Of a stretch of 64,000 nucleotides of DNA, positions 32,037-33,332 are shown in pieces. Position 1 is the stretch's first letter, and every line of letters begins with the position of its first letter. The DNA is from Haloplanus salinus (GTDB lineage: Archaea; Halobacteriota; Halobacteria; Halobacteriales; Haloferacaceae): positions 434,001 to 498,000 of the forward strand of contig NZ_QPHM01000001.1 in the NCBI RefSeq assembly GCF_003336245.1, in the 5' to 3' direction. A program made the position numbers and the translations under genes. The notes beneath the pieces are model-generated. The model was not told where the DNA came from. It did not search any database and worked only from the letters and a program-made list of their open reading frames with translations.

Positions 32037-32075
32037 AGTCGGAGGATGCGGACGCCGACGGTTAAGCGTGTTCGA

Positions 32076-32558
32076 TCACTCACCGCCGGTGATGGCGTCG
32101 ATGCCCTCGTGGGCCAGTTCGAGCGTCTCCGTCGCCGCCGCGGGACGGTCGGCGGCGAGTTCCGGTCCCGTCCACCGGGCGGGGGTCGCGTCGCGGCAGC
32201 GCCAGCCACGCGCTCGCTCGCCCGCGGCGTCGAGCAGGAACACCCGCACGTCGCGTCGCTCGACCCGGCCGGCCACCCAGTCGCGGAGCCAGTCCCAGAG
32301 CCGTCGGTCGTCGGTAATCCCCCGCCGGAGCGTGAGGGCGGGCGAGGCGGTTCGGCGGCGGGACGGGGACGGGACGGCGCCGAACGGACCACGCCAGTCG
32401 AGCCAGTCCACCTTCGCCGCGTCGTCGCTCCCGGGCTCCTCGGCCGGCCGCGCCTGCACGCACACCGATAGCCCACGCACCTCGGTGAAGCCGAGCGACG
32501 GTCGGTCGTCCCCGATGTCGACGTCGAAGCGGTGGCGTCGGTAGGGGTCGTCGCTCAT
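32076..32558 (-). CDS. gp19-family contractile tail tube protein, orphan copy 1
   Basis: 160 residues from MSDDPYRRHRFDVD, the ATG overlapping the upstream tube gene's stop (ATGA). It resembles the conserved phage-tail region of gp19-type tube proteins in phages and extracellular contractile injection systems. FTEVRGLSV matches the usual F-x-E-V-x-G-L start, LTLRRGITDDRRLWDWLRDW the hallmark L-K-R-G-x-T-D region, and ATETLELAHEGID the conserved end. The middle differs from typical members: the loop that usually carries the EYREG segment is rewritten (AKVDWLDWRGPFG). No signal peptide. No other tail gene flanks it. Confidence 0.85.
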   Translation of the reverse strand: MSDDPYRRHRFDVDIGDDRPSLGFTEVRGLSVCVQARPAEEPGSDDAAKVDWLDWRGPFGAVPSPSRRRTASPALTLRRGITDDRRLWDWLRDWVAGRVERRDVRVFLLDAAGERARGWRCRDATPARWTGPELAADRPAAATETLELAHEGIDAITGGE

Positions 32559-33148
32559 CCCGCGTCGGGACGTTTCCGCGTCGGGGTCGGCCGTTCCTCG
32601 GGGCGGAACCGACGGATCGGGTTCCGCAGCCCCTCGCTCGGCTTCCGCGGCGTCGGCGAGTCGGTCTCGGGGCGCTCGTCCCTCCCCGCGCCGTCGGGTT
32701 CCGACCCCGTATCGACGCGGCGGAGTCCTTCGCACGCGATCTCCACCGCTTCGATGGCGACGGCCGAGCGCCCGGCGTCGAGCGTCGGCGCCGCGTACCG
32801 CGTCGGCCACGCGTTCCGGAGTTCCCACCGTGCGGCCGGCGCCCCCTCCTCGTCGAGGAGGACGACGGCGATGGAGCGACGCGCCTCGTCGACCCGTCCC
32901 TGTTCGACGAGCCGTCGCCACTCGTAGAGTTCGATGGCGTCGGTCGTGACGCCGTAGCGCAGTCCGAGCGCGCCGTACTCGTTCGAGCCGGCGAGTTTCC
33001 GCGGCGTCGGCGGGTCGTTGCCCTCGCGGTACTCGACGACGGTCGTCGAGGAGTCGGGGATTCGACACCGGCTGAACCCCGCCTTCGCCACCCCGTCGAT
33101 TTCGAGGAGGAAGCGAGCCATCCGGAGCGGGCCGTGTCGGTCAGGCAT
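32555..33148 (-). CDS. gp19-family contractile tail tube protein, orphan copy 2 with basic Pro/Arg tail
   Basis: 197 residues. Residues about 8-150 fit the gp19 tube fold: GFSRCRIPDS, VVEYREGNDPPTPRKLAG, ALGLRYGVTTDAIELYEWRR, VVLLDEEGAPAARWELRNAWPTRY and IEAVEIACEGLRRV, all at expected positions. The last about 45 residues form an unusual Pro/Arg-rich tail. Two different tube paralogues side by side are typical of extracellular contractile injection systems, which build a tube from several gp19 paralogues. A 4-nt overlap couples it to the next gene. Confidence in the fold is high; function in this cell is unknown. Confidence 0.87.
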   Translation of the reverse strand: MPDRHGPLRMARFLLEIDGVAKAGFSRCRIPDSSTTVVEYREGNDPPTPRKLAGSNEYGALGLRYGVTTDAIELYEWRRLVEQGRVDEARRSIAVVLLDEEGAPAARWELRNAWPTRYAAPTLDAGRSAVAIEAVEIACEGLRRVDTGSEPDGAGRDERPETDSPTPRKPSEGLRNPIRRFRPEERPTPTRKRPDAG

Positions 33149-33209
33149 CGGCCCGCCCCGGTCGGCCGGCGTTCCCGCCCGCTGTGCGTAGTGTGGTACC
33201 GTCTCTCAT
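33141..33209 (-). other. 22-codon leader ORF overlapping the tail tube gene
   Basis: ATG at 33209 opens a 22-codon frame (MRDGTTLRTAGG...GRADA) whose stop overlaps the tube gene's ATG by 8 nt, and GGGAGGTG lies about 15 nt before it. It may be a translational-coupling leader or the remnant of a lost upstream gene. The rest of the 33149-33332 gap shows no gene. Speculative. Confidence 0.3.
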
Positions 33210-33332
33210 TTCGAGTGATCGAACACCTCCCACTCTCTTGAAACTTTGCGCGGGGGAGACGGTTCGCGGTGGTCGTCCGCCGTGCGCCGGGACGGTCGGC
33301 GAGCCGCCGGCACTGCCGCGCGAACCCCCGCC

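Follow-up and report, generated by a model that had tools for sequence, protein, structure and literature searches.

Why should a haloarchaeal genome keep two genes for the tube of a contractile injection system (CIS) where no such machine surrounds them? We addressed this question for a gene pair on the reverse strand of a 64,000-nucleotide stretch of the Haloplanus salinus genome, which was analysed as a whole and is called the window here:

32555-33148, reverse strand: gene A, Cis1-type inner-tube paralogue, 197 aa (PF06841, 3.7e-37)
32076-32558, reverse strand: gene B, Cis5-type tube-adaptor paralogue, 160 aa (PF06841, 1.3e-24)

The stop codon of A and the ATG of B share a 4-nt ATGA overlap in this genome. 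An earlier note on this DNA had described the two genes as coupled gp19 paralogues; both open reading frames are in place, and PF06841, TIGR02241 and Foldseek agree on what they encode. In the profile search against gp19 models that the note had proposed, both proteins scored far over the cut-offs (PF06841, cut-off 28.2 bits: A 127.6 and B 86.9 bits; TIGR02241, cut-off 62.4 bits: A 123.6 and B 81.3 bits). Among solved structures, CIS tube proteins were matched at 2e-17 to 2e-16 by A and at 3e-11 to 3e-10 by B. Foldseek searches with both AlphaFold models retrieved CIS tube, adaptor and Hcp chains, the top matches being CIS tube and adaptor chains at 1e-6 to 3e-8 with a probability of 1.00. Confidence in the monomer models is moderate (mean pLDDT 68 for A and 71 for B), chiefly owing to disorder in the A tail and in the loops of both proteins, and this disorder also accounts for the moderate TM-scores of the Foldseek matches. 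A and B belong unambiguously to the gp19 family of tail-tube proteins, with a tube-barrel fold predicted for both. They are the only gp19 matches in the whole genome, which is 99.93% complete.

The earlier note had also pictured an island devoid of sheath, gp25 and spike, and genome-wide Pfam searches bore this out and added the tube cap to the missing parts. Searches for the CIS sheath (PF17482, PF04984), gp25 (PF04965), the spike base Phage_base_V (PF04717) and the Pvc16 tube cap (PF14065) were negative in the window's genome and in the other pair-carrying genomes searched, and positive in CIS controls. At the locus itself, neither a CIS-type AAA+ ATPase nor a LysM protein adjoins the pair. 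A single Baseplate_J gene in the genome led to a provirus at about C1:2.30-2.33 Mb (about 2303000-2326000; loci L169 and L170 in our labelling), ~1.85 Mb from the pair, which has the only contractile tail of this genome. Besides Baseplate_J it encodes a terminase, a capsid protein, a tail chaperone, a tube protein (phrog_12452) and a sheath protein (phrog_10244). Pfam models miss this sheath, which is clear in PHROGs (1e-119), so that the absence of a sheath from this genome is to be read as the absence of a CIS sheath. The provirus tube is unrelated to A, and the provirus sheath family occurs in 2 of the 28 pair-carrying genomes searched and is missing from the other 26; we therefore ruled out that the pair is part of the resident provirus. 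Nor do tailed-provirus genes (terminase, portal, capsid) adjoin the tube genes, whose neighbours are metabolic in every lineage. A viral origin was rejected as well, since viral and phage collections gave only distant matches at about 28-34% identity, with the nearest viral tubes at some 30%. Models of anti-phage defence in PADLOC matched neither A nor B.

Comparison with NCBIfam models separated the two genes. A matched TIGR02241 and CIS1 best, with CIS1 at 102 bits against 54 for CIS5, and B matched CIS5 at 80 bits against 13 for CIS1. Both stay under the equivalog cut-offs, A with 102.2 against 220 bits for CIS1 (NF053769) and B with 80.1 against 260 bits for CIS5 (NF053770). Among 120 gp19 proteins placed in one tree, A forms one group (99) beside Cis1 and B one group (92) beside Cis5; in a focused tree, the orphan A clade (100/99) falls within a group with type-2 haloarchaeal Cis1. 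The Cis1 of one type-2 CIS locus (L071) is 67% identical to A, and this locus has the order sheath, Cis1, a 132-aa protein, Cis5. This is the ancestral order, to which the pair corresponds once the flanks and the middle gene are removed. Judged by sequence and tree position, A is a Cis1 descendant outside the curated NF053769 equivalog that derives from one of the two haloarchaeal CIS lineages, and B derives from the Cis5 adaptor.

Across the Halobacteria surveyed, gp19 was found in 80 of 391 genomes. Sheath genes accompany it in 47 of these and gp25 in 46, which are the CIS carriers, and 33 have neither. The resulting CIS frequency (47/391, 12%) agrees with the complete clusters reported in 41 of 350 haloarchaeal genomes, 12% (PMC11566945). 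The 33 genomes free of sheath and gp25 comprise 25 with the A-B pair and 8 with a single, different orphan gp19. A family survey of 170 genomes, divided by our own split into 25 with the pair, 17 with CIS and 5 with a single gp19, supplied three more pairs (genomes G453, G454 and G474). A scan of named genomes, which also gave Haloferax and Halorubrum species, SHRA6 and strain XH8, added Halorientalis persicus and H. pallida and brought the total to 30, a count to be read as at least 30 haloarchaeal genomes. Among genomes with the closest relatives of A, a sheath is present in 44 of 49, and the other five are all pair-carrying haloarchaea. A never occurs without B in this clade. The pair has a single origin and is independent of CIS in the genomes that carry it. 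The earlier note had allowed for a set of tail genes simply split off by rearrangement; this is at odds with the presence of the pair in ~30 genomes, at several sites, with one clade per gene.

The identical A-B order is found at about seven unrelated sites (Haloferax, Halorubrum, Halorientalis, Haloplanus and others). In the window the neighbours are a GMC oxidoreductase gene and a class I/II aminotransferase gene that is hisC by context, in keeping with the earlier note. Elsewhere, with names read by eye except where Pfam was run, one flank carries a helix-hairpin-helix protein in Halorubrum and either a glycosidase or a metal ATPase in Haloferax, and the neighbours are ribonucleotide reductase in Halorientalis, and gatB and topA in strain XH8. 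The comparison of related genomes that the note had suggested thus yielded sites that differ by genus with the A-B order kept. No partner gene near the pair is common to different genera, and no RNA element or tRNA was found at the pair site. Four Haloplanus genomes have the site empty, with the GMC oxidoreductase gene followed directly by hisC and the hisC leader intact:

32037-32075, reverse strand: hisC leader, the downstream boundary of the module; CACGCTTAA[GC]CGTC...CCGCAT is kept in pair-carrying and pair-less genomes

In one genome (G454; L167 6884-8458) the GMC gene is separated from the pair by the gene of a 524-aa protein whose N-terminus has a camelysin-like (Peptidase_M73) match, indicating that the GMC-hisC interval received more than one insertion.

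In established CIS structures, the YxEG loop between strands 2 and 3 of a tube protein contacts the next ring. The corresponding region and one further region of A and B are as follows:

32969-33058, reverse strand: A residues 31-60, probable inter-ring stacking loop with YREG motif, conserved, of low confidence and disordered in the monomer model
32349-32456, reverse strand: B residues 35-70, variable insert, partly Trp/Arg-rich, in place of the stacking loop
32558-32707, reverse strand: A residues ~148-197, C-terminal Pro/Arg-rich tail by alignment, absent in Halorubrum and Halorientalis

The loop motif Y[RE][EA]G was kept in 25 of 25 orphan A proteins, and conservation of the stacking loop is equal in A and in true Cis1 (0.65 each). 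The loop is also present in all 62 CIS gp19 proteins, in 60 by motif and in two as EEGG. B carries 15-48 variable residues at this position instead (25/25), and a YxEG-type motif was found in none of the 25. As the rest of the protein is better conserved in B than in Cis5 (identity 0.59 against 0.47), B is not decaying and the loop was specifically lost. With the loops disordered in moderate-confidence monomers, the argument on stacking rests on sequence and on the architecture established for CIS. The B insert is often Trp-rich and possibly amphipathic (DWFDWGDRL, PWWDFGDWFDQY, LWRRLLVRDASW; Haloplanus, Halorientalis, Halorubrum), and that of Haloferax is Arg/Pro-rich rather than Trp-rich. 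The A tail varies by genus in the alignment, being Arg/Pro-rich, acidic or missing. Charge complementarity between A tail and B insert was considered and set aside as a general feature, since only Haloferax has it. The rewritten loop and the Pro/Arg-rich tail that the earlier note had each seen in one copy are both real, the loop belonging to B and the tail to A.

In the three genera with several genomes, core dN/dS values were 0.13-0.27 for A and 0.29-0.31 for B; both cores are under purifying selection. These values are somewhat above those of most neighbours (hisC 0.19 and most others 0.15-0.25 in the Haloplanus comparison), the NG86 method being rough at these distances. The A tail in Haloplanus is nearly relaxed, with a dN/dS of 0.7 against 0.27 for the domain. 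A frameshift or stop was found in none of the pairs of the searched set. The occurrence of the pair in at least 30 genomes, intact and under selection, suggests a tube put to a new use.

The earlier note had overlooked the Cis1 and Cis5 identity of the genes and the empty sites, and also a short ORF (sORF) upstream of A:

33141-33209, reverse strand: sORF of 22 codons plus stop, probable leader ORF, out of frame with A and overlapping the A start
33238-33248, reverse strand: promoter-like element CAAAGTTTCAA, whose TTCAA core precedes the sORF start codon by 33 nt

At 29 of 30 pair loci an ATG ORF with 16-49 codons stops within -2 to +11 nt of the A start, and a comparable one was found in 64 of 343 control genes (controls with at least 110 nt upstream), the 29 loci not being independent since the pairs are related by descent in ~7 lineages. 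The 30th locus has a GTG/TTG version by eye. In eight pair-carrying Haloplanus genomes, TTCAA stands at -33 (once -32) from the sORF ATG despite a distance from sORF to A that varies from 43 to 67 nt, indicating that the element is anchored to the sORF. Such an anchored promoter-like element fits a leaderless transcript. TATA-like stretches at a similar distance were seen by eye in other genera. The sORF peptides are variable and little conserved; we therefore treat the sORF as a leader ORF and not as a gene for a functional peptide, and its translation rather than its product seems to matter. In Haloferax, termination-reinitiation is an established mechanism where genes overlap briefly (PMC6728339, PMC10666635). 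Of the H. volcanii pairs spaced by -8 to +10 nt, 45.2% encode subunits of heteromeric complexes, compared with 5.6% of distant pairs (PMC10666635). A and B are separated, with no overlap, by 59-123 nt in Halorubrum, 39 nt in Halorientalis and 13 nt in G305, so that strict coupling of A and B is not general.

We give about an even chance to the proposal that a haloarchaeal CIS gave rise to the locus by domestication and loss of the sheath, with A making rings or a tube ended by B under coupled translation. Of the CIS genes, Cis1 and Cis5 alone would have been kept, as A and B, and would form a compact module under a promoter of their own. A leaderless mRNA would begin at the sORF; ribosomes ending the sORF would reinitiate at A, and those ending A would reinitiate at the overlapping B, fixing the A:B ratio. 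With its loop intact, A is predicted from sequence and fold to adopt the form of a Cis1 subunit and to build stackable hexameric rings, whereas the loop-less, Cis5-like B would join the A stack on one face and end it. The product may be a short capped tube or a double ring in the cytoplasm. Such an assembly, having no sheath, spike or baseplate, would be unable to inject and would probably act as a soluble scaffold, a carrier or a sequestering ring, which is our first choice of role, with interference in CIS assembly as its main rival. The data themselves show the module to be domesticated and CIS-independent; its A-ring and B-cap mechanism we infer from the Cis1/Cis5 ancestry, from the loop present in A and lost in B, and from coupling of expression. 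The fuller reading, that of a sheath-free two-protein nanotube or capped ring with A as its body, B as its end and expression through the leader ORF, working autonomously in the cytosol as a carrier, scaffold or CIS-interfering device, is a tentative one that we would put at somewhat worse than even. Of the two alternatives offered by the earlier note, a tube-only assembly with a new role is the favoured candidate, and a pair feeding a system elsewhere is largely excluded.

For interference, the two proteins would have to co-assemble with tube subunits made by a competing or incoming CIS, or else derail the assembly of a CIS borne by a mobile element. CIS clusters transfer horizontally among haloarchaea (PMC11566945), a loop-less B would end a tube, and A, up to 67% identical to the functional type-2 Cis1 of L071, is near enough to co-assemble with it. 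No genome of the family survey carries both the pair and a CIS (25 and 17 among 170), but some 2.5 double carriers are expected by chance and a count of zero is not significant (~0.07 by our own arithmetic), and mutual exclusion was dropped on this ground. Injected tubes are, moreover, pre-assembled in the attacker, so that it is hard to see how a decoy in the cytosol of the target would act, and the negative PADLOC result also speaks against such a function, which we regard as unlikely. Similarly improbable in our estimate is a repurposed domain that has lost the tube property, in which case a small hetero-oligomer of A and B (a dimer or single ring) would bind another protein. The loss of the loop in B, the A tails that differ across genera and the Trp-rich segment in the B insert of several genera are consistent with it; conservation of the A loop to the level of true Cis1 is unexpected if stacking was lost.

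Chance survival of a decaying remnant of a lost CIS was already disfavoured and is judged very improbable. Relaxation of the Haloplanus A tail, the lack of the pair in some relatives and the other single orphan gp19 genes of haloarchaea agree with decay, which is opposed by 30 intact pairs with one clade per gene and A never without B, by purifying selection on both cores and by conservation of the sORF and the promoter-like element. Least probable of all, and only barely to be entertained, is a supply of tube subunits in trans to a tail encoded elsewhere, by a mobile CIS or by the resident provirus. The provirus does offer sheath, tube, tail chaperone, baseplate J, capsid and terminase in the window's genome, but it brings its own unrelated tube and its sheath is missing from 26 of 28 pair genomes; CIS sheath and gp25 occur in no pair genome searched, and Phage_base_V and Pvc16 are likewise missing from the window's genome.

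The domesticated derivative that we prefer can be set against known systems. T6SS-like CIS are known among archaea from Halogeometricum borinquense and Haloferax elongans, whereas H. volcanii carries no CIS cluster (PMC11566945). Haloarchaeal CIS resemble the pair in having Cis1 and Cis5 proteins, with Cis1 before Cis5 in the type-2 operon (L071) as in A-B; unlike them, the pair lacks a sheath, gp25, a spike, a cap and the small protein, its genes are adjacent or overlapping, and its B is loop-less. No mention of orphan pairs was found in that study (PMC11566945), and no description of such a pair was found in the open-access literature searched, which does not prove its absence. The tube proteins Pvc1/Pvc5 and Afp1/Afp5 and those of the Algoriphagus and Anabaena CIS share the sequence family (TIGR02241/PF06841) and the predicted fold with A and B. 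Characterised members of this family act inside a complete contractile machine. The T6SS tube protein Hcp is similar to the A and B models by Foldseek, and Hcp rings can exist alone; unlike Hcp, whose rings belong to a secretion machine, the pair comes with no T6SS core genes and has no sequence match to it. Many domestications of entire contractile tails are known. In the haloarchaeal pair a single component, the inner tube along with the adaptor, seems to have been excised once, kept alone and then maintained in many haloarchaea for long enough that it diverged into several genera. If the assembly is real, a non-injecting tube has a use, comparable to that of capsid proteins reused as encapsulins. 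The pair also provides a simple two-gene test case, in tractable archaea, of a stacking subunit against a naturally loop-less terminator.

Single orphans fall in both the Cis1 and the Cis5 half of the tree, which suggests repeated origins of stand-alone gp19 genes. One such Cis1-like gene, with no sheath, is followed by a Peptidase_S74 (endosialidase-chaperone) gene (L060 1819-17649 and L061, in G046 and G253); its flanks encode 2000-residue PQQ-propeller/beta-helix proteins, possibly a tail-fibre-like surface system. More single orphans were seen in CIS-less haloarchaea (L044/L052 in G097 and G197, L054/L057 in G209 and G310, L059 in G036, L041 in G030). Relatives of A named 'phage tail protein', 30-48% identical to it, are found on many bacterial plasmids, among them those of Deinococcus, Cereibacter, Rhizobium and others.
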